Below, piece by piece: positions 19,526 through 56,801 of a DNA stretch of 64,000 nt (the stretch's first letter is position 1; each line of letters begins with the position of its first letter). This stretch comes from Enterobacter cancerogenus (lineage in GTDB: Bacteria; Pseudomonadota; Gammaproteobacteria; Enterobacterales; Enterobacteriaceae). The notes beneath the pieces are model-generated. The model was not told where the DNA came from. It did not search any database and worked only from the letters and a program-made list of their open reading frames with translations. Location of the stretch: NCBI RefSeq assembly GCF_019047785.1, contig NZ_CP077290.1:620001-684000 (forward strand), written 5' to 3'. Position numbers and translations under genes: made by a program.

Positions 19526-20530
19526 CTATTTATAGGTCAGCGTAAAGGTCGCCGTGGCGTTGGCCGTGCCTGCCGTTATCGCCGACGTGGTCTGGTAGTA
19601 GCGCGCCTTAAGCTGTACCGTCTCAGATCCTCCGTACGACGAGGTGTAGTAGTACCTGCTCTGACCAAACTGCACCGCGCTGTCATCCGGTGTAAAGTAG
19701 AGCTGCACGCCCACCCCCGTTGCGGCCATATCACCCGGCGCGCTGTCCAGTTTTATCACGCCCGCAGCACTGGACGGATCCTGAGTGGCGTCAATCTGGA
19801 CGTTGATACGGGCACTTTTGTCGCAGTCCAGTCTGATCACGAACGTCTGCCAGCCGGTGGTTGAGCCCGGTCCGGAGAACTCAGCCTTTTTATGCTGGCC
19901 TAACTCGACGCTGACATCGGGCGTCGTGACTGCACAGGCAATCGTATCAATTTGCCCGCCGGAAAAGGTGATCGGCAGTTCCGTTGACCACTGCCCGTTC
20001 TCCCGGGTACCGGCAATAAAACGCCCGGGTGAACCACTCAGCGCACCGGGGGTAATGTCACCGGTTTTAATCAGGCGGACCCGCGCCTGATCGTTGATCG
20101 AGGGATGGTAACCCGTACTGTGGCTAATCTGGAGCGTGAACACCTGCGACTGTCCGCTGGCAATACCGCTCCAGCTCTCCGGTAACGGTGTACTGTCCAC
20201 GGAGTTGCGACCTTCAAACACATACCCCACGCCCGGCACGTTGGTCTTGAAAACCGCCTCACCGTTCCAGGTGATGCTGGCTTTCGCGCCCGTGTTTTTG
20301 ATACCGGCAACGATGGCGTATTGCGGGGTGCCATCATAATTACAGTCCTGATAGGCTACGCCCTGGTTGGACATCAGCCAGTCGCTGATGGGCTGCCCCA
20401 CCGTCGCGTCCCGCTGGACAATCACCGTGCCGGGGCTGATTGAAAAACTTCCTGTAGCCGTACAAAACGCCCACGATGTCTGGCAGAAAGCGATGCCCAC
20501 CAGCAGAATAATTATGCGCCATACCGTCAT
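19526..20530 (-). CDS. Fimbrial tip adhesin / minor subunit (operon 1)
   Basis: A two-domain fimbrial protein of 334 residues. The start MTVWRIIILLVGIAFCQTSWAF overlaps the usher stop (ATGA) and gives a clean signal peptide; the longer frame to 20614 lies inside usher coding. The N-terminal domain (about 23-180) is a putative receptor-binding domain with a Cys pair. The C-terminal pilin domain (about 190-334) ends TATFTLTYK, the donor-strand motif read by chaperone and usher. It is the last gene of the operon, the usual adhesin position. The receptor is unknown. Confidence 0.85.
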   Translation of the reverse strand: MTVWRIIILLVGIAFCQTSWAFCTATGSFSISPGTVIVQRDATVGQPISDWLMSNQGVAYQDCNYDGTPQYAIVAGIKNTGAKASITWNGEAVFKTNVPGVGYVFEGRNSVDSTPLPESWSGIASGQSQVFTLQISHSTGYHPSINDQARVRLIKTGDITPGALSGSPGRFIAGTRENGQWSTELPITFSGGQIDTIACAVTTPDVSVELGQHKKAEFSGPGSTTGWQTFVIRLDCDKSARINVQIDATQDPSSAAGVIKLDSAPGDMAATGVGVQLYFTPDDSAVQFGQSRYYYTSSYGGSETVQLKARYYQTTSAITAGTANATATFTLTYK

Positions 20531-23028
20531 TTCACTGTCTCCTGGCATTCCTGGGTCACCGTGATCACCGGTGGCTGGTTTTCCTGTTCCGGCAGTCGGT
20601 AATGCACCGCGCACTGCTGTACCCCGTTCCAGTTCACCGCAATCTCGCCTTCCTGCGGTACGCCGGTGAGGTACACCTGGCCGTCATCACCCACGATCCC
20701 GCTGCCGCCCTCTTTGAGCTTCGCCTGTGCGCCAAACGGCACCGGCAGCCCGCGGTAATACAGCGTCATCAGCACGCGCCGCCCGACGCGGGTGTTGAAG
20801 TCGGCCATCACCACCGCGCCCTGCGTTGGCGTCACCGTCTGCACGGCGGTGTCGATATCCACCTCGTCGCCGAGCGTGCTGGTATCCAGCGCGATACGGT
20901 TTTTCTTGTACGGGTTGACGTACGGCACCACCGCATAGCCGCGCCAGTCGGTATAGACCCCGGTATTGTTCTGCACCTTCGTGTCATCCGCGCCGGGCGC
21001 GTTGACAATCGCCAGCGACTGGCCGAGCGGCTGGGACAGCGTGATGCCGTGCGGATGGGCGACAATGCCGCCTCTCAGGCCGTAGTTGACCTGCTGCGTG
21101 TCGTCGTCGTAGTTGTAGCCGCCGGTGATTTCACCCTGTCCGCCTTTGTAGTCGGCGCTGATATTGCCGGAGCCGCCCACGCCGTGGTTGGTGTAGCTCT
21201 GCTGGAGGCTGTAGCTCAGGTTGTTATCGGCAAGCGCCGTGCCGTTCAGCCCCACCTGCTGGCGGGTGTCGCCATGTTTCGCGGTGTTGACGCTGTAGCT
21301 CACCCAGGCATTCGGCATAAAGCGGCTGAGTGGCACCTGGACGTTGAACGCCAGCTGCTGGTCGGCGGGCTGAGTGCTCTCCGGGTAGTCGCTGTAGCTG
21401 TACGTCACGCTGTAGCTGATGCCGTCGATGTTGCCGTTCCAGCCAGTGCTCAGAGTGCGTTCATAGCCGTCCTCCTGCCAGTAATCCTGCTGGTAGCCGG
21501 AAACAAAAAACGAGCCGTAGCTACCGATACTCTGGCTGAGGTCAAGCTGAAGGCGCTGACGTTTGTTGTACGTCATCCGCCAGCCGTCGTCGCTGTCTGC
21601 CCGCAGGTCGTTCGCCTCCTGGAAGGTGTAAAACCCGGCGGTGGAGTAGCGGTAGGCTGCCAGCGTAAAGCTGGTGTCGGTGGTCTGAAAATCTTTCGAG
21701 TACTGCACCCGGTACGACTGGCCGTTGTGGCTGTCGTCGTTATTCAGCGTGGTATGCGCGGCGGTGATATCGGCGGAAAGCGAGCCGAGTTCACCGAGGC
21801 CAAAACCCAGTCCCGCCGCCCCGGACTGATAGTCCTGCGAATAGAGTGTGCCGCCATAAAGGGTGATGGCATACGGCAGGCCGTAAATCGCCGTGACCTG
21901 GCCGAACTCCGGTTCATCGCTGTCGTCGTTGCCGCTGCGGTATTTCCCGGCGGTGAGGGCATATTTCAGGCGGCCTTCACGCTGCATGATCGGCACCGCC
22001 GAGAACGGCTGGACGAAGGTGCGCTCGCTGCCGTCAGCCTCTTTGATGGTCACTTCCAGGTTGCCGCTGCCGGAGGTCGGGTAGAGGTCGCTGATGGTGA
22101 ACGCGCCGGGGGCAACGTAGCTCTGGTAGATGATGTAGCCGTTTTGCTTAATGGTCACCTGGGCACTGGACTGGGCGATGCCGCGGATAATCGGGGCGAA
22201 CCCGCGCAGGCTGTCCGGCAGCATATTGTCGTCAGAGGCCAGTTGCGCGCCACGAAACTGGACGCTGTCGAAGATATCCGACGGCGTGTAGCTGTCGCCG
22301 AGCGTCAGCTGTCCCTTCAGGCGCTGAATATCCCGCTGAAGGTATGTGTTCACCGAGTCCCAGTGGCTGCCGCTGTCCTCGTCGTAGTTCCAGGTCGAAT
22401 AGTTGCGCAGCCGCCACGCGCCGAGGTTGATACCGCTTTGCAGGTTGGCGTAGTAGTTATCGTCCGAACCGTTTTCCCCGTCGCGCCAGGTGTTGCTGCC
22501 GCTGAGGTTGTAGTTCAGCAGCGCGGCGGGCACGCCTTCGTCCCACTCGGACGGGTCCACCCAGCCACGCGCGCTGGCATTCATCGCCGCCTGCGGAATA
22601 CTGACGTTAAGCTGGAGTTTGCTGAAGCGCAGGTCGGTGGCGGCCATCGGGATAAAGCGGCCAATGTCGTCCAGAGGCTTATCCAGCGGCAACGCCGCCA
22701 GCGCGGGGAAGACGTCGGTTTTCACGCCCCAGGCTTTCAGCATGGCGGGCGTTATCTGCGCGGTGAGCTTTTTATCCGGCCCGGCGACAAAGGCAATGTC
22801 CTGCGCTTCTCCCTGTTTTTCGCTGTTCACATACACCGTCACCCGGTAGGTGCCGGGAAGCTGACCGTCGGATTCGGCAAAGGCCGACAAATCCGCGACC
22901 GGCTGGCCGGGGTTATCAATTTCCAGCGCGTGGGTGTTGAAGACCTCACGGGCCTCGGCACTGCGCAAACAGTGTGCCTGAAGCAGCGTCAGCAGGATAA
23001 TCATCAGACGTGGCGTCGTGTTGTTCAT
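20527..23028 (-). CDS. Fimbrial outer-membrane usher (operon 1)
   Basis: An 833-residue FimD/PapC-family usher: signal peptide, N-terminal domain (FNTHALEIDNPGQPVADLSAF), 24-strand beta-barrel with plug (LRGFAPIIRGIAQSSAQVTIKQNGY, SVAPGAF-type motif YVAPGAFTISDLYP) and C-terminal domains with a Cys pair near the end. It receives chaperone-subunit complexes and secretes the polymer. The start at 23028 follows AAGGAGG; a GTG at 23043 overlapping the chaperone stop is less likely. A long opposite-strand frame over this gene is a shadow. Confidence 0.95.
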   Translation of the reverse strand: MNNTTPRLMIILLTLLQAHCLRSAEAREVFNTHALEIDNPGQPVADLSAFAESDGQLPGTYRVTVYVNSEKQGEAQDIAFVAGPDKKLTAQITPAMLKAWGVKTDVFPALAALPLDKPLDDIGRFIPMAATDLRFSKLQLNVSIPQAAMNASARGWVDPSEWDEGVPAALLNYNLSGSNTWRDGENGSDDNYYANLQSGINLGAWRLRNYSTWNYDEDSGSHWDSVNTYLQRDIQRLKGQLTLGDSYTPSDIFDSVQFRGAQLASDDNMLPDSLRGFAPIIRGIAQSSAQVTIKQNGYIIYQSYVAPGAFTISDLYPTSGSGNLEVTIKEADGSERTFVQPFSAVPIMQREGRLKYALTAGKYRSGNDDSDEPEFGQVTAIYGLPYAITLYGGTLYSQDYQSGAAGLGFGLGELGSLSADITAAHTTLNNDDSHNGQSYRVQYSKDFQTTDTSFTLAAYRYSTAGFYTFQEANDLRADSDDGWRMTYNKRQRLQLDLSQSIGSYGSFFVSGYQQDYWQEDGYERTLSTGWNGNIDGISYSVTYSYSDYPESTQPADQQLAFNVQVPLSRFMPNAWVSYSVNTAKHGDTRQQVGLNGTALADNNLSYSLQQSYTNHGVGGSGNISADYKGGQGEITGGYNYDDDTQQVNYGLRGGIVAHPHGITLSQPLGQSLAIVNAPGADDTKVQNNTGVYTDWRGYAVVPYVNPYKKNRIALDTSTLGDEVDIDTAVQTVTPTQGAVVMADFNTRVGRRVLMTLYYRGLPVPFGAQAKLKEGGSGIVGDDGQVYLTGVPQEGEIAVNWNGVQQCAVHYRLPEQENQPPVITVTQECQETVK

Positions 23029-23039
23029 CACGTCCTCCT

Positions 23040-23720
23040 TCACAGCGTACGACTTTCGGTCTGGCTGATGCCGCCGTAGTCGCTGATGGCCTGCCAGGTC
23101 ACGCGGGATGCGCGCGCGGACGGTAGCGTGAAGCTGGCACTGCCTTTGGGCGGCACCATATCCGCCTCTTTGATCTCCTGCCCGTCAACCTTCAGGGTGA
23201 ACAGCGTGACGTAATACGGCGTGGGGTTACTGACGGTAAGATGATTGCCGCTGCGGGCGACGCTCAGCTGGTGATACGCGCTCTCCGGTTGTCCTTCCAG
23301 CCCGGCCGGTCGGAAAAACAGCTTCAGGCGCGACTTGACCACAACCTGCAGCACGTTGGTGCGCGGCCTGCTGTCGTCGGTGGCGGGGATCGATTTCACG
23401 TTCAGCCAGAACACCGACTCCCGGTCCTGCGGCAGGTTGCCCCCGGTGCGCACAATGCGCAGCATGTTCTCTTCATCGGGATTGATGCGAAACAGCGGTG
23501 GGGTGACGATGAACGGCGCTTTGCCGCCCTGCTCGCCGCTGTCCACCCAGCTTTGCACCAGATAGACGCCCGATTTCTCCGGGTTACGCACCGAAGCGGC
23601 CGTCTCTTTTTTATCCCCGTCATAAATCACGCGCGTCCCGCCAATCACAATCCCGGCCTGCGCCTGCACGCTCAGGAAAGCGAGCACCAGCGCCAGCATC
23701 ACGTCTGCATACCTGTTCAT
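23040..23720 (-). CDS. Fimbrial periplasmic chaperone (operon 1)
   Basis: A PapD-like chaperone of 226 residues with a signal peptide (MNRYADVMLALVLAFLSVQAQA). Immunoglobulin-fold landmarks are GGTRVIYDGDKKETAASVRN, YLVQSWVDS, PFIVTPPLFRI and FWLNVKSIP, with the conserved basic residues that anchor subunit C-termini. It delivers pilins to the usher by donor-strand complementation. The start at 23720 has a CCGGAG ribosome site; the longer frame to 23816 is unlikely. Confidence 0.95.
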   Translation of the reverse strand: MNRYADVMLALVLAFLSVQAQAGIVIGGTRVIYDGDKKETAASVRNPEKSGVYLVQSWVDSGEQGGKAPFIVTPPLFRINPDEENMLRIVRTGGNLPQDRESVFWLNVKSIPATDDSRPRTNVLQVVVKSRLKLFFRPAGLEGQPESAYHQLSVARSGNHLTVSNPTPYYVTLFTLKVDGQEIKEADMVPPKGSASFTLPSARASRVTWQAISDYGGISQTESRTL

Positions 23721-23820: not shown

Positions 23821-24333
23821 TTATTTGTAATTAATGGTGAACTGCGAGGTACCGTTGGCTGTCCCGGTGGTCACCGCGGTGCCGGTGGAAACATACCGGG
23901 CGACGAAGTCCAGGGAATTGGTGCCCTCTGCGAGGGTGTAATCCGCTGATGCCGAGTGCAGGGGAATGGCGGTCCCGTTTTTATCAGCGATTTCAATACC
24001 GACGCCGGTCGCGATCCCGGTACCGCTGTCCAGCGCCAGCAGGTTTTGATTAACGCCATCTGACGTCCCGTCAAACTTGACGTTCGCCCCGGTAACGGTG
24101 TCCGGGCAGTCGCTCAGGCTAAGGGTAAAGCGCGTCGGGGAGGCTTTCATGCCGGCCGCACCGTTCAGTACGGTTTGCGCCACATTGCCCAAATCGACGT
24201 TCATATTTTGCGAACCGCTGTCCACGGTACAGGTCTGGTCAGTGATGCTGCCGGTAAAGTGGATGGTGCCATCGGCAGCGACCGCACCTGCGGCCACCAG
24301 TAATAAACACGCGCTTAACATCGTTTTTTTCAT
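23821..24333 (-). CDS. Major fimbrial subunit, FimA-like (operon 1)
   Basis: A 170-residue type 1-like pilin with signal peptide (MKKTMLSACLLLVAAGAVA), a Cys pair (DQTCTVDSG and LSDCPDTV) and the C-terminal chaperone motif GTSQFTINYK. It forms the fibre shaft. It is the first gene of the operon, directly downstream of the recombinase and the 301-bp inverted-repeat segment, as fimA is in E. coli. AAGGAG precedes the start. Expression probably depends on the orientation of that segment. Confidence 0.93.
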   Translation of the reverse strand: MKKTMLSACLLLVAAGAVAADGTIHFTGSITDQTCTVDSGSQNMNVDLGNVAQTVLNGAAGMKASPTRFTLSLSDCPDTVTGANVKFDGTSDGVNQNLLALDSGTGIATGVGIEIADKNGTAIPLHSASADYTLAEGTNSLDFVARYVSTGTAVTTGTANGTSQFTINYK

Positions 24334-24542
24334 ACATTTCTCCTTGGTGAACGATCACGCAGGTCTCGACCCTGCTTCACTCCGGCGGCGAAAAAATCAC
24401 CATAAGACTTTCCCGTTAGTGCCAGAGTGGTGAGTTCAGGAGAAAATATGGAGAAGGATGAAAAGGGGAAATAAAATATCAGCAGGCGGGCGTTCTGACT
24501 GTTGTCACGGCATAAAACCGTAAGGCGGTGAGCATGTGAAAA

Positions 24543-24575
24543 CTGGCAACGTGAATAACGCAAGCACGTTGCCAG
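24543..24575. repeat. 11-bp inverted repeat inside the switch element
   Basis: CTGGCAACGTG / CACGTTGCCAG separated by 11 bp. It may be a hairpin or a protein site in the middle of the element, comparable in place to the IHF/Lrp region of fimS. Confidence 0.6.
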
Positions 24576-24656
24576 CGGTAACCAGAGGAAGCAACATAGG
24601 CTTTACATGTAATGTTGGTTTAAAATCAGCAAGATAGTCCGTTATCAAAAGGGGCC

Positions 24657-24692
24657 TCAGAAAAATTTTGACACTGCGCTAAATTTTTCTGA
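24657..24692. repeat. 12-bp palindrome overlapping the invertible promoter
   Basis: TCAGAAAAATTT / AAATTTTTCTGA with a 12-bp centre. The -35 lies at its centre and the -10 begins at its right arm, so a bound protein would block the promoter. In the leftward direction it could also act as the recombinase mRNA hairpin. Confidence 0.6.
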
Positions 24693-24696
24693 TACT
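24668..24696 (+). promoter_or_regulatory. Invertible fimbrial promoter (now pointing away from fimA)
   Basis: A perfect -35 TTGACA (24668-24673), a 17-bp spacer and GATACT (24691-24696). Transcription would start near 24703, at the edge of the right repeat, running antisense into the recombinase gene. After inversion the same promoter would face fimA with a leader of about 85-90 nt. Confidence 0.75.
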
Positions 24697-24699
24697 ACT

Positions 24700-25290
24700 T
24701 TACATTCTGGCACTAATTGTGGGGTTTTCTCTCATCGTCCCCCAGACATTCATAAATCTTTGTGTATTCGTCGCCGTATAAATCACCGTATGCCGGATGT
24801 TCCGGTGCCCCAGATAATCCTGTATCAATCGGGTATCCCGCCCCAAATCTGCCAGCGCATAACCGCAACCGTGTCTTAGCATATGCGGATAGGCGGCAAT
24901 ACTGACACCCGCCAGTTCGCCATAACGTTTGAGTAACAATCTCACCTGATGACGTGACAGCGCGCCGCCCTTTTGCGACAGGAACAGCCAGTCTGAATCT
25001 GCATCCCGCCAGCGGTTACGGACCGCCAGCCAGCGCATAAGCGCAGGCAGTTCGGCATCAAACAGCGGATGCTGCGTCGAGAGGCTGTTTTTCAGTCGCC
25101 GGACATAGACCGAACGCCCAACCAGATCGAGATCGGACAGGCGCATTCCGCACAGCTCGCTGACCCGCAGGCCGTGTAAGTAGCACATCTGAATAAGGCA
25201 ATAATCGCGCTCAAAATGGATACCTCTGTCCGCTGCAAGCAGTATCTGTCCCACTTCATGGCGAGTGAGATGCTTTCGTTTTTCAGGCAT
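24700..25290 (-). CDS. FimB/FimE-type tyrosine recombinase
   Basis: A 196-residue site-specific recombinase (FimB and FimE are about 200). Catalytic residues are visible: Arg42 (HGLRVSELCGMRLSDLDL), His136 and Arg139 (PHMLRHGCGYALADLG), His162 (YLGHRNIRHT) and Tyr171 (VIYTATN). It would invert the adjacent 301-bp element. Its last codons (TISAR-Met-stop) lie within and just beyond the right inverted repeat, so inversion would change the C-terminus. The ribosome site is AAGGAGC. A strong hairpin with T8 stands 30 bp before the start. Confidence 0.93.
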   Translation of the reverse strand: MPEKRKHLTRHEVGQILLAADRGIHFERDYCLIQMCYLHGLRVSELCGMRLSDLDLVGRSVYVRRLKNSLSTQHPLFDAELPALMRWLAVRNRWRDADSDWLFLSQKGGALSRHQVRLLLKRYGELAGVSIAAYPHMLRHGCGYALADLGRDTRLIQDYLGHRNIRHTVIYTATNTQRFMNVWGTMRENPTISARM

Positions 25291-25605: not shown

Positions 25606-25806
25606 TTAGCGCAGTTCTTTTATCCTCGCCCGCTCGGCCTGCATTCGATAAAGTTCGTATCGCTCCCGGAACCATGCTTGTTGTTCATCACTCATATTGC
25701 CGGTCACGGCAGCAACATCAATCTCCTGGCCCAGGGCGTGCATACGGGCAAAACTGCGTGCCAGAAAATCAAAATTCTTCAGTGCGTATATTTCTTGTCG
25801 GTTCAT
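25606..25806 (-). CDS. Small conserved-looking hypothetical protein (66 aa)
   Basis: I do not recognise this protein. It is a charged, helical 66-residue product (MNRQEIYALKNFDFLARSF..., ending RARIKELR) rich in Arg, Glu and Gln, without signal peptide or membrane segment. A GGAGGGATATGCG ribosome region precedes the ATG and an inverted repeat follows the stop, which supports a real gene. It lies between the recombinase and ydhS. Confidence 0.6.
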   Translation of the reverse strand: MNRQEIYALKNFDFLARSFARMHALGQEIDVAAVTGNMSDEQQAWFRERYELYRMQAERARIKELR

Positions 25807-51985: not shown

Positions 51986-52933
51986 CTACTGGTAGGTGAG
52001 ATTAAGCGTGGCGGATGCATTCGCGGAGCCCGCCTCCACGACCGGCAGCGTCTGGTAATAGCGCGCGGTCAACGGAAATGTCTCCTGCCCACCCGCAGCG
52101 AACTTCATCACCAGACGGTTATTCAACGTCAGCGGCGTGCCGTTATATAACAGTTGTACGCCGACGCCTTTTGCCGTGCCGGTGTTACCCTGTCCGGTTA
52201 AGGCCAGCACGCTGTTATTCGCCACATCGGGATTCTGAATGCCGCTTAAGGTCGCCGTCACGTTGGCGCCCGCATCGCAATTCAGACCCAGGTTTTGGGT
52301 GTTTTGCGCCCCCGAAGGGGTAGTGCCCACCGTTGAGCCAAACGTCGCGGCGGAGATATCGCCTATCGGAAAGGTCAGTTGCGGCGTGAGGATCGTGCAG
52401 GCCACGACATTAACGGTTCCGTCGGTAATACGCGTGGTCAGGCCGTCGCGAAAAACGCCGTCAGCGTCCTGCACGGCGACGACGCCGACAACGCCCGGCG
52501 TCAGCGAGCCAGAGGTCACTGGCCCGGTGACAATCAGTTCAATTTTCCCGCCCCACCATTCCACGTAAGATGTCTGCGCGTTATACGAAAAGGTGTTCAT
52601 CGGGTTGTCGAAATGCGCGCCCGAAGAGAAGCGGATACCAATTCCCGGGATATTAGTATCGTAAATATGATTGCCCAGGGTGCTCGGCACGGCATTCAGG
52701 TATCGCAGGCTGAACCCTAGGATCAACGGGTTGCTACAGCCACTTAAATACGATTTCGTCGTGGTGGCCGCGCGGGAAAAGATAACCGTCCCCACCGCGA
52801 CATCGCGCTGCACTGACAACGTCCCTACCGAGAGCGTCGACTCCAGGGGCGTGATCGTCGTGCAGGTGCCGGCGTCCGCGACAGGTGCGCTTAACGCGAG
52901 ACAAAGCATAAAAATGAAGATCGGTAATCGCAT
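51986..52933 (-). CDS. Fimbrial tip adhesin / minor subunit (operon 2)
   Basis: A 315-residue two-domain protein with signal peptide (MRLPIFIFMLCLALSAPVADA), an N-terminal putative binding domain with Cys residues (GTCTTITPLES; SGCSNPL), and a pilin domain (about 175-315) ending ATLNLTYQ. The layout parallels the adhesin of operon 1, but the sequences are clearly diverged. The receptor is unknown. Confidence 0.83.
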   Translation of the reverse strand: MRLPIFIFMLCLALSAPVADAGTCTTITPLESTLSVGTLSVQRDVAVGTVIFSRAATTTKSYLSGCSNPLILGFSLRYLNAVPSTLGNHIYDTNIPGIGIRFSSGAHFDNPMNTFSYNAQTSYVEWWGGKIELIVTGPVTSGSLTPGVVGVVAVQDADGVFRDGLTTRITDGTVNVVACTILTPQLTFPIGDISAATFGSTVGTTPSGAQNTQNLGLNCDAGANVTATLSGIQNPDVANNSVLALTGQGNTGTAKGVGVQLLYNGTPLTLNNRLVMKFAAGGQETFPLTARYYQTLPVVEAGSANASATLNLTYQ

Positions 52934-52943
52934 CGGTTAAACC

Positions 52944-55466
52944 CTAAAGGCAGTTAATTGTCAGTTCGGTCATGCCCGCCGGAGAAGGCGGGTCCGCAAG
53001 CGTGAACGCGGCGCGGCACTGCTGGTCCGGGCCAGGCCCCCACTTCACGTCGAGCGTTCCCCGATCCTCCAGACCGGAGAGGTACGCCTGCCCTCTGTCG
53101 CCCACAATCACGCTGTCGCTCTCCACGCGCGCCAGGGTGACGATGGCACCAAAAGGCACGGCACGCCCCCGGTAAAGCAAGGTTATCAGGGCGCGGCGGC
53201 CAATTTTCGCCCTGTAGTCCGATCGCACTACCGCGCCACGGGTTGGCGTCACCGTCTGGGTGGTCAGCTCCAGCTCGACGTCGTCAGGCAGGCTTTCGGG
53301 CGCGAGGGTAATGTCGTTTTGACGGTATACCGACAGATTGCTGACCACCGTATAGCCGCGAAAGTCAGTTTTGACGCCCGGCTGGTTGCGGATAGCAACA
53401 TCATGCGCGCCCGGCGCTTTAACCAGTGAGTTGGTCTCGCCAAGCGGCTGCGAGAGCGTCAGGCCATTCTCATGCAGAAGAATCCCGCCCTGCAGGCCAT
53501 AGTTGAGGCGGGCGCTCTGTTTGTCGTAGCCGTATCCCAGGCTCGCATCGCCGTAAGCGCCTTTATAATCGCCGCTCAGGGTGCCGGAGTTGCCTGCGCC
53601 ACGGGTGCCATAGCCCTGCTGCAGGTTCCAGCTCAAGGCCTGGTTGTCCAGCGCCACACCGTTCAGGCCGACGTTGTGCGTTGTGCCATTGTGTTTACTG
53701 ACGTTCATCCCTTCGCTGGCCCACGTCTGCGGCAGGAGTGCATCAAGCGGAACGCTGATGTTAAGGGCCAGAAGCTGATCTTTTTCATACCGTTTTTGGC
53801 TGCCACTGGCGTCGGGGGTGCCGTTTCTGCTGTACGTCCACGTCAACCCGAAGCTGACATGCCGCCAGTAGTTGTTATACCCAAGGCTGTAGGACGCCAT
53901 GGTTCGTCCGGAATTCCAGTAATCTTCCCGCGCCGCGCTCAGCATCAGCGACCCACGGTTCCCGCCGAGCGACTGACTCATCGTCAACTCCGCCCGGTTG
54001 CGACGCCGCTCCTGAACGATGCGGTTATCGCCATACGTATCCAGAGTCTCCTGCATGCCGTAATAGCCGCGGGTGGCATAGCGGTAGCCCGCAATTGAAA
54101 AATGGGTGCCAGTGCTGACCATGTTTTTAGCGTATCGCGCCCGCAGGGACTCACCGTGAGCCTGGCCCTCGCCCCGAGGCGATGATTCGCTCCGCGTCAC
54201 GTCCACAGACACGGCACCGAGGCCGCCCATATTTTTTCCGACCCCCAGCGACAGGGCCTGATACTTAGCGGATGCCTGCACGCCGCCGTAAAGGGTGTAT
54301 CCCTGCGGCAAACCATATATGGCCGTCACTACGCCAAACGGCGTGTTTTCTTCGCTGCGGTCATACGAGCGGTACTGTCCGGCGGTGAGCGCGTATTTCA
54401 GTCGCCCTTCCCGCTGCAAAACCGGCAGAGAAGCAAACGGCAGCGTAAAGTGCTGCTCGCTCCCGTCACTTTCCACTATGGTGACGTCAAGATCGCCCGC
54501 GCCGCCGGTAGGGTACATATCGGTAATCGCAAAGGCCCCGGGCGCCACGTAGGTCTGATAAATCTGATAGCCGTTTTGGCGCACAACTACCTGGGCATTG
54601 GTGCGGGCAATCCCTCTGACCACCGGGGCGTACCCTTTCTGCGAATCCGGCAGCATATCGTCATCCGAGGCCAACTGGCCGCCGCGAAACGGCAGACTGT
54701 CAAACACATCCGAGGGGGACGCGCTGTCGCCTAACGTAAGCTGCGCTTTCAGGGGGATAATGGCGCGCTGAACATAGGTATAAACCGTATCCGTGCTGCT
54801 CTGCCCTGACGCGTCTCGCGACAAGGTGCTGTAATTTCGCAGTCGCCACGGCCCGACGTTAAGCCCTGGACGCAGGTTAATGTACTGGCTGCTGGCGTCC
54901 GTTCCGGTATGTTGCCTGGCCCAGCCTTTTGCCCCGCTAAGGCTGTAATTCAGCATGGCGGCGGTGATCCCGTCGTCCCAGCGGTCGGGCGAGACATAGC
55001 CGCGTGCGGGCATAGCGATCGCGGCCTGCGGAATACTGATGATGAGCCGCTGCGCCGCAAACTCAAACCGTGCGCTGGCCTGCGGGATCGCCTCCAGGTT
55101 GACGCAGTCCGCGCTGTCTTGCGACAACGCGGGGAACAGCGCGGTTTTTACACCCCACGCTTTTAGCCGCTCGAGGCTCAGACAGGGCTGCAAGGGTGCG
55201 TCCGCGGCTTTCCCGGCAATAAACTGCACGTCTTTGGTCTCTACAAGCTGGCCGTCGAGAATAATGTCAACGCGGTACTGGCCCGGCGCCTGACCGCCCG
55301 TTTCAAACGCGGACAAATCCGCTTTGCCCATACCCGGGTTATCCAGCTCCACCAGCTCGGGGTTGAATGTTTCACGGGCGTAAACTGACTGCGCGACGTT
55401 GAAAAACGCAACGACAAAATATAACGCCTGACGCGCGGGCCACATTTTATTCTTTTTCGTTGCCAT
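52944..55466 (-). CDS. Fimbrial outer-membrane usher (operon 2)
   Basis: An 840-residue usher with signal peptide (to YA), N-terminal domain (FNPELVELDNPGMGKADLSAFETG), barrel and plug (QKGYAPVVRGIARTNAQVVVRQNGY; YVAPGAFAITDMYPTG) and C-terminal domains. It shares motif order with the operon 1 usher, so the loci are paralogous but not recent copies. AGGGAAAAG precedes the start. Confidence 0.94.
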   Translation of the reverse strand: MATKKNKMWPARQALYFVVAFFNVAQSVYARETFNPELVELDNPGMGKADLSAFETGGQAPGQYRVDIILDGQLVETKDVQFIAGKAADAPLQPCLSLERLKAWGVKTALFPALSQDSADCVNLEAIPQASARFEFAAQRLIISIPQAAIAMPARGYVSPDRWDDGITAAMLNYSLSGAKGWARQHTGTDASSQYINLRPGLNVGPWRLRNYSTLSRDASGQSSTDTVYTYVQRAIIPLKAQLTLGDSASPSDVFDSLPFRGGQLASDDDMLPDSQKGYAPVVRGIARTNAQVVVRQNGYQIYQTYVAPGAFAITDMYPTGGAGDLDVTIVESDGSEQHFTLPFASLPVLQREGRLKYALTAGQYRSYDRSEENTPFGVVTAIYGLPQGYTLYGGVQASAKYQALSLGVGKNMGGLGAVSVDVTRSESSPRGEGQAHGESLRARYAKNMVSTGTHFSIAGYRYATRGYYGMQETLDTYGDNRIVQERRRNRAELTMSQSLGGNRGSLMLSAAREDYWNSGRTMASYSLGYNNYWRHVSFGLTWTYSRNGTPDASGSQKRYEKDQLLALNISVPLDALLPQTWASEGMNVSKHNGTTHNVGLNGVALDNQALSWNLQQGYGTRGAGNSGTLSGDYKGAYGDASLGYGYDKQSARLNYGLQGGILLHENGLTLSQPLGETNSLVKAPGAHDVAIRNQPGVKTDFRGYTVVSNLSVYRQNDITLAPESLPDDVELELTTQTVTPTRGAVVRSDYRAKIGRRALITLLYRGRAVPFGAIVTLARVESDSVIVGDRGQAYLSGLEDRGTLDVKWGPGPDQQCRAAFTLADPPSPAGMTELTINCL

Positions 55467-55502
55467 TTCTTTTCCCTGATGTTTTCAGGAGAGACCTTTA
55501 CT

Positions 55503-56183
55503 TTATAATGACGCGTTAACCTGATGGGTTATTCCAGGGCTGCCGTAGTCATTGATGATTTTAAATATCATTGCACTACCATTAGCCCCCTGCGGAATAG
55601 CAAAGCGGGTGACCGAGCCTGGCAGAACAAACGTCACGTCTTCCACTTTTTTTCCACCCAGGCTTATTTCATTAAAATTGATGACATATTGCGTCGGGTT
55701 CGATACTTCCAGAGTATTGCCCCTGCGCTGCCATTTTAACTGGTTCGCCTGTTCTTCCGGGCTGGAGCCTTTTAAATTGGCCGGACGATAAATCAGCTTT
55801 ATGCGTGTTTTCACGGCAATTTGCAGGGCATTGGTTTGGGCTGCCGATGAGGGAATGGCTTTTATATTGAGCCAGAACAAACTCTCTTTATTCTGGGGCA
55901 GTGCGCCGGTCAGCACGATTCGTTCAACGTTTTGCTGCCCACCCTCCAGACGATAAAGCGGAGGCGTAATCACAAACGGCGCTTTATTATTCTCCCCTTG
56001 TGGCATATCCACCCAGGACTGAATCAGATAAGGCGAGCTGTCAGGGTTATTAACGTTAATGGAGGCCTCTTTTTTAGCCCCGTCAAAAATAACGCGCGTT
56101 CCGCCGATAATCACACCGGCGTACGCGTCCGTTATACCCAGAGCAGCGGCCGATATCAGAATCATTTTGCCAATAACTTTCAT
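55503..56183 (-). CDS. Fimbrial periplasmic chaperone (operon 2)
   Basis: A PapD-like chaperone of 226 residues; signal peptide MKVIGKMILISAAALGITDAYA, then GGTRVIFDGAKKEASINVNNPD, YLIQSWVDMP, PFVITPPLYRL and FWLNIKAIPS. The start at 56183 has AGG upstream; the frame to 56204 lacks support. Confidence 0.94.
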   Translation of the reverse strand: MKVIGKMILISAAALGITDAYAGVIIGGTRVIFDGAKKEASINVNNPDSSPYLIQSWVDMPQGENNKAPFVITPPLYRLEGGQQNVERIVLTGALPQNKESLFWLNIKAIPSSAAQTNALQIAVKTRIKLIYRPANLKGSSPEEQANQLKWQRRGNTLEVSNPTQYVINFNEISLGGKKVEDVTFVLPGSVTRFAIPQGANGSAMIFKIINDYGSPGITHQVNASL

Positions 56184-56258
56184 TTTTCTACCTGTTTGAA
56201 ACAAGGGGGCAATATGCCCCCCATCGAGACGTAAGCGTAATAACGCTGTGCTCGTATA

Positions 56259-56801
56259 TCAGTTGTAAACCACAGAGAAGTTAGCCACAGAGTTAGCCGG
56301 ACCCGCGACCACCGTCGCTGCAGTTGAGATATACTGAGCATAGAAATCCAACGTATTATCCGCAGTGCTGCTCAGCATATAGGTATAACCGTTGGTACCG
56401 TGCAGAGGCAGGTCTGCTTTATCTGCCGTCATCAGGTTAATTGCAATCCCGGTGGCTGCACCCGCTACTGAGGAATCAATAGCCAGCAGGTTTGAATTGC
56501 TGATATCCGGCGTACCGTCAAAACGCACTTTTGCGCTGGTCACCGTAACCGGGCAATTTTTCAGAACGATATTAAATTTCGTTGCGGGCGTTCTGGAGCC
56601 GGTGGCGGTAAACTCTGTTTTATAATAATCGCCCAGTACGACAACCTGGTTTTGCGACGCGATATCCACATCACAGGCGGAATCCAGAATATTACCCGCG
56701 AAATTTACGGATCCTGCTGCAGCGAATAACGTTGTTGCCGTCAGGGCAGAACTTGCTGCAAGGGCAGCCATTACCATCATTTTTTTCATCATCATCATCA
56801 T
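56259..56801 (-). CDS. Major fimbrial subunit (operon 2)
   Basis: A 180-residue pilin. Signal peptide ends near FAAA; a Cys pair (SACDVDIAS and LKNCPVTV) and C-terminal VANFSVVYN follow. The gene begins with five ATG codons in a row (56787-56801), two more being close behind, so the exact start is uncertain. It is the first gene of the operon and faces the divergent IprA-like regulator across 392 bp carrying three palindromes. Confidence 0.9.
   Translation of the reverse strand: MMMMMKKMMVMAALAASSALTATTLFAAAGSVNFAGNILDSACDVDIASQNQVVVLGDYYKTEFTATGSRTPATKFNIVLKNCPVTVTSAKVRFDGTPDISNSNLLAIDSSVAGAATGIAINLMTADKADLPLHGTNGYTYMLSSTADNTLDFYAQYISTAATVVAGPANSVANFSVVYN

Follow-up and report, generated by a model that had tools for sequence, protein, structure and literature searches.

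A putative 301-bp promoter-inversion switch, in the OFF orientation, beside a four-gene chaperone-usher fimbrial operon

Positions 24416-24716 of the 64-kb stretch of DNA analysed here (the window) are best explained as a site-specific promoter-inversion switch whose present orientation would leave the adjoining fimbrial operon OFF, a reading whose probability is put at about 0.87. Judged by sequence, the region combines an adjacent invertase with its catalytic residues, repeats that bound a segment in the range of about 250-320 bp and a promoter near an end of the element. From the family of the enzyme and the anatomy of the locus, the adjacent FimB/FimE-family tyrosine recombinase would bind both repeats and invert the 279-bp interior. 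In the orientation seen, the sole good promoter is predicted to fire antisense into the recombinase gene, leaving the four-gene chaperone-usher operon silent; after inversion the promoter is predicted to face fimA across a leader of about 96 nt and so to turn the operon ON. The features are:

19526..20533, minus strand: two-domain tip adhesin, about 335 aa (PF22003 + PF00419)
20527..23043, minus strand: outer membrane usher, 838 aa from the longest start (PF00577)
23040..23720, minus strand: periplasmic chaperone (PF00345, PF02753)
23821..24333, minus strand: major pilin gene, fimA-like, 170 aa (PF00419)
24416..24426, plus strand: IRL, the fimA-side 11-bp inverted repeat TTAGTGCCAGA; the arm reaches 24429 with one mismatch
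24427..24705, no strand: 279-bp putative invertible interior, predicted from repeat anatomy
24543..24575, minus strand: 11-bp perfect stem-loop, then TTTT on the minus strand (folding -19.7 kcal/mol, z -4.84)
24668..24696, plus strand: sigma70-like promoter TTGACA-17-GATACT from the promoter scan, now reading antisense into the recombinase gene
24700..25290, minus strand: FimB/FimE-type tyrosine DNA invertase, 196 aa (NF007370, PF00589)
24706..24716, minus strand: IRR, the recombinase-side repeat TCTGGCACTAA, within the 3' end of the recombinase open reading frame (...TISARM*)
25606..25806, minus strand: GlgS-type cell-surface composition regulator, 66 aa, intact, accompanying the module in three hosts

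The operon and the repeats

The operon has four genes, for pilin, chaperone, usher and adhesin, the start of the chaperone being set from a 226-aa E. coli homologue (the longest start in the open reading frame list is 23816). Together with a pilin domain, PF00419, the adhesin has an MrkD-like receptor domain, PF22003, that at 28.9 bits is barely over the cut-off of 27. The window holds a further chaperone-usher operon at 51989-56723 on the minus strand, which is 27-47% identical to the first operon as found in E. coli.

An earlier note on this DNA, made from the letters alone, had described perfect 11-bp repeats 279 bp apart, and they are exactly that: TTAGTGCCAGA at 24416-24426 and TCTGGCACTAA at 24706-24716 form an exact inverted pair with a gap of 279 bp, the whole element spans 301 bp, and extension of the arms takes them to 14 nt at 93% complementarity. 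Its placing of both repeats between the recombinase and the first fimbrial gene holds for the left repeat but not for the right, which falls within the final codons of the enzyme's gene (stop codon at 24700-24702). The sequence TTAGTGCCAGA has two copies in the window, both at the element (in 100 shuffles the mean was 0.02 and two were never seen), and this exact pair at a spacing of 268-290 bp is present in one of 392 family genomes, the window's own. Since a perfect arm of at least 11 bp at a span of 250-350 bp also arises in 16 of 5000 dinucleotide shuffles of the local region (about 0.3%), the repeat pair on its own is modest evidence, and it is conservation that carries the case.

Relatives and conservation of the arms

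Twelve distinct elements were read, those of the window, a congener, five E. coli, three Kosakonia, Entomohabitans and Leminorella, and their spans lie between 299 and 304 bp. Of 5426 E. coli genomes, 42 match a 1-kb query across the switch at a coverage of 80% or more, with 86-87% identity among the matches listed (20 of 42), and the recombinase likewise reaches at least 80% coverage in 42 E. coli genomes; five of the 42 carriers were fetched and read. The interior alone matches 43 E. coli genomes, including IH5, where half an element lies in a stretch that is rearranged and rich in pseudogenes; this genome was left out of the 42. In the window's genus a recombinase match at E 1e-60 is present in six of 61 genomes, namely the window's own, the congener (G012, 96% identical, with an usher that is 88% identical) and four at 53-58%. 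Recombinase identity is 86% for Kosakonia cowanii (L003), 83% for Entomohabitans (L004; L023 reads the same) and 70% for Leminorella (L005; L024 reads the same). Two further loci, L022 and L041, with recombinases 86% identical, come from two genomes of one genus and are counted as Kosakonia because they closely match L003. At the protein level alone, Klebsiella quasipneumoniae, Citrobacter portucalensis and Enterobacter ludwigii have relatives of the recombinase at 83-85%.

Both 14-nt arms (the right at 24703-24716) are identical in all six close relatives, in which the interior is 73-78% and the fimA leader 72-82% identical. The arm core is TTAGTGCCA in the window, congener, E. coli and Kosakonia, TTTGTGCCA in Entomohabitans and TAGGACCAA in Leminorella, the two arms being altered together; the perfect arm match is down to 9 bp in Kosakonia, with the core retained, and in Leminorella. 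The conserved spans and the co-variation of the arms between lineages are strong evidence for what would be a real recombination site.

A repeat pair lies by the 3' end of the recombinase gene, with spans of 299-322 bp, in 19 of the 35 loci or segments inspected, several of these 19 being one element fetched a second time. The other 16 (L006, L007, L017, L020 and L025-L036, with recombinases 33-65% identical) gave no convincing pair, the stretches for L017 and L026 being incomplete; in L006 there are 11-bp paired repeats at 307 bp, of which the left one falls far within the recombinase gene and beyond the stretch inspected. Three loci with recombinases of 53-57% identity (L018, L019 and L021) have 15-bp inverted repeats spanning 311-322 bp by a FimB-type recombinase, and are probable further switches; in L018 and L021 the 15-bp pair is past the recombinase stop codon. 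Farther afield, an order-wide draw of 394 genomes gave the window's own copy as the only match at E 1e-85, plasmids gave no close copy (best 63%) and phages no match at E 1e-30, and one viral contig has a 64% relative (L040).

Promoter and stem-loop

The earlier note's strong promoter pointing away from fimA is confirmed by a scan of 24250-24800 in which promoter-like sites were those with at least nine of 12 consensus bases: TTGACA at 24668-24673 is followed, after a spacer of 17 nt, by GATACT at 24691-24696, and the two sites found in all are both on the plus strand, away from fimA. The same scan bears out the note's view that no comparable promoter reads toward fimA, as no promoter-like site is present on the minus strand in 24250-24800, and this range takes in 24333-24416, where a constitutive fimA promoter might have lain. 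The direction of the promoter in the OFF orientation is read from the letters themselves, and under a less strict pattern a similar promoter turns up at the same place and in the same direction in all 14 segments read (12 distinct). For the leader in the ON orientation the note's 85-90 nt gives way to a predicted length of about 96 nt, assuming that transcription starts 7 nt past the -10 hexamer.

A guess at the function of the stem-loop is that in the OFF orientation, with its TTTT, it may halt read-through from the recombinase gene before fimA. The stem motif CTGGCA...TGCCAG is kept in 14 of the 14 segments read, and TTTT follows it in seven, being missing in Kosakonia, Entomohabitans and Leminorella; because of the latter figure, and because the terminator scan did not call the stem-loop at 24543-24575, it is a weak candidate for a terminator. 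The possibility that it is instead an auxiliary site for the recombinase, CTGGCA being common to the stem and the repeats, was rejected, as Leminorella keeps the motif though its repeats have changed.

Orientation and alternative explanations

Orientation could be assigned for 49 elements, the window's included, and all 49 are OFF. For the 42 of E. coli the assignment compares element strand with recombinase strand by eye; for the congener and L003 it is by alignment, and for L022, L041, Entomohabitans and Leminorella by promoter position. Most of the E. coli copies have one common identity score, and since they are probably clonal the 42 are not independent. The exact pattern of the ON junction had no match in viral contigs either. 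The search of related genomes for both orientations that the earlier note had proposed has thus yielded one orientation only, an outcome that the note had itself named as counting against the switch, and of its claim of an invertible fimbrial promoter, presently OFF, the anatomy, the enzyme family and the co-varying arms speak in favor, but the other orientation was seen in none of 49.

A single orientation fits a strongly OFF-biased switch and equally a locked one. The leading alternative, which we consider unlikely, is of the latter kind: a former switch with its sites and enzyme still recognisable and inversion absent or negligible in rate. Besides the 49 of 49, it could draw on the window's module being without the conjugation genes that adjoin the module in two other hosts. 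However, the recombinase open reading frame, its catalytic residues, both arms and the promoter are all intact, and the arms co-vary in diverged species, as would fit continued use.

Much less likely again is a fixed regulatory region with no inversion at all, in which the repeats bind a recombinase-like regulator and the RNA made from the promoter is antisense to the recombinase gene. The constant direction of the promoter (14 of 14 segments, 12 of them distinct) and the failure to find an ON form suit it, and a conserved antisense promoter without inversion would equally give the promoter conservation counted above. Yet the catalytic residues are retained, and inverted repeats bound the 252-314 bp elements of the FimB/FimE enzyme family in the parts of the published accounts that were available (PMC9820224, PMC6083910). 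Furthermore, as there is no fimA-directed promoter-like site, an intact operon would under such an arrangement have no promoter of its own. Last, repeats that arose by chance beside an unrelated recombinase are highly improbable. The local shuffles, 16 of 5000 of which have a pair as long at a fitting span, might be cited in their favor, but five other lineages have repeats in the same position, and the changes in them are coordinated.

The recombinase and its C-terminus

The putative switch enzyme reaches 244.9 bits with NF007370, the NCBIfam invertase model, whose cut-off is 221. The catalytic residues, claimed earlier to be intact, are found by motif as R42, H136, R139 and Y171, the placing being by motif and numbering; those of FimE are given as R41, H136, R139 and Y171 in the available text of PMC9820224. 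It is the only close match of its type in the genome at E 1e-10; two other matches at that threshold are 31 and 33% identical, have open frames of 302 and 308 aa and are, we infer, probably XerC and XerD.

With the right repeat lying in its own gene, the enzyme would have its C-terminus altered by inversion, and the predicted effect is conversion of a 196-aa into a 210-aa form. When the interior is reversed in silico the ending ...TISARM becomes ...TISARVVSSGENMEKDEKGK, the last residue being replaced by a 15-residue tail and the length going from 196 to 210 aa. The same exercise changes the C-terminus in ten of 12 loci, the window among them, with the predicted stop at the same offset in seven of the 12 (window, congener and five E. 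coli); across those seven only the first seven residues of the tail are identical. The recombinases of Kosakonia, Entomohabitans and Leminorella (three of the 12 loci) also change, with other tails, and those of L018 and L021 show no C-terminal change.

Among 379 proteins found, the C-termini of 30 were inspected. Seven of 210 aa (P0013-P0015 and P0017-P0020, of which P0015 is named Klebsiella michiganensis) were considered as ON-state recombinases, 210 aa being the length predicted for that state, and rejected, as their tails, ...LVPECKVVSEKFSKVSKLF, fit the OFF-side end in another frame, a judgement made by eye from the protein. One of 203 aa (P0024, ...SARVVNIIKKN) might by its protein alone be an ON form and was counted neither way.

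A more speculative proposal, which we hold to be doubtful, is that one gene gives two enzymes, of 196 aa in the OFF state and of 210 aa with the VVSSGEN... tail in the ON state, and that the tail might influence how fast inversion proceeds or which direction it favors, so that a single gene would do the paired job of FimB and FimE; antisense RNA from the OFF promoter would help to hold the OFF state, and the switch would travel on a conjugative element with the gene for GlgS, a restraint on fimbriae in E. coli. With the C-terminal change, the state of a switch would be written into the enzyme that flips it, and this makes for a testable case.

Relation to known inversion switches

The term 'undescribed', used in the earlier note, is fair for this copy, but the mechanism is known (fimS, mrp, fot, hyxS and ipuS; KpcI). 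The literature search, to which subscription papers were mostly closed so that absence from print is not established, found among the titles and abstract openings listed no account of this switch or of a conjugative-element copy in E. coli. Published promoter-inversion elements include fimS, mrp and fot (excerpts of PMC9820224) and hyxS and ipuS (excerpts of PMC6083910).

For the predicted C-terminal change the nearest precedent is ipuS with its recombinase IpuA, of E. coli CFT073, according to the accessible portion of PMC6083910. Like the element here it is a promoter inversion element by a FimB-family recombinase, with the distal repeat within the recombinase gene so that inversion alters the C-terminus; it differs in having 260 bp and 7-bp repeats and in controlling ipuR-upaE (an autotransporter) instead of a fimbrial operon (PMC6083910). 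In the ON state IpuA is shortened by 11 aa, whereas the window recombinase is predicted to be lengthened by 14 aa; the shortened IpuA is still active in both directions, and four of the five CFT073 recombinases act on ipuS (same excerpts). A C-terminal change on inversion thus has published precedent, with extension rather than truncation predicted here.

In type 1 fimbriae the gene order is fimB-fimE-fimS-fimA, all in the same direction. The fimS element resembles the one here in its FimB/FimE-family enzymes, in its similar size (314 bp) and in its position before the pilin gene, and differs in having two recombinases, a 9-bp repeat, TTGGGGCCA, and a different operon (as far as PMC9820224 could be consulted). 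The present element is not fimS, its core being TTAGTGCCA and the recombinase the single one of its type in the genome. By hand comparison TTAGTGCCA matches TTGGGGCCA at seven of nine positions, and because of this, and of the four in five CFT073 recombinases that act on ipuS, a specificity differing from that of fimS, as earlier proposed, does not follow from the repeat sequence. The mrp element of Proteus mirabilis, with MrpI, is like the window in having one recombinase and one fimbrial promoter element between the recombinase and pilin genes, but the element is 252 bp and the operon a different one (excerpts of PMC9820224).

The way in which the repeat arms of the elements read here vary along with the recombinases should be useful for work on site specificity in the FimB/FimE family, and the element would be a further promoter-inversion switch, one that is widely spread and associated with conjugation. 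The kpcS element of Klebsiella pneumoniae reportedly has about 302 bp and 11-bp repeats, which would agree with the 302 bp of the E. coli elements here, and with its recombinase KpcI it may be the same switch and the nearest named relative. By the title of Wu et al. (2010, Microbiology 156:1983), a site-specific recombinase regulates the chaperone-usher fimbriae concerned. The Klebsiella cluster is named kpcABCDEFG in the part of a review that was available (PMC7400442), seven genes versus the four of the window operon.

Association with conjugative elements and the GlgS gene

In the five E. coli loci that were fetched (L009-L013) the recombinase adjoins genes annotated as encoding integrating conjugative element proteins. 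The fimbrial switch module of the congener (L048), which is another species of the window's genus, is also by conjugative-element genes. The GlgS gene, the sole match of its kind in the genome at E 0.001, and the recombinase are separated by about 5.0 kb, with conjugation genes between, both in the congener and in E. coli L009; in the window the distance is about 0.3 kb and the intervening conjugation genes are absent, the homologous blocks being 64 bp apart in the window against the congener and 139 bp apart against L009. On the left, homology to L009 stops at the end of the adhesin (19528). On these grounds the operon and switch appear to have come as cargo on a conjugative element, which would since have decayed in the window. 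At E 1e-150 none of the other 60 genomes of the genus has the left neighbor of the module, while its right neighbor is present in 57 of 61.

In E. coli, deletion of GlgS is reported to increase both flagella and type 1 fimbriae (excerpts of PMC7537768, citing Rahimpour et al. 2013), and because of the reported effect on type 1 fimbriae, the linkage of GlgS with the switch may be functional. The E. coli S10 stretch has no adhesin gene annotated; an IS150-family transposase gene there adjoins a shorter usher gene (L010 2083-3452), and the switch is still there.
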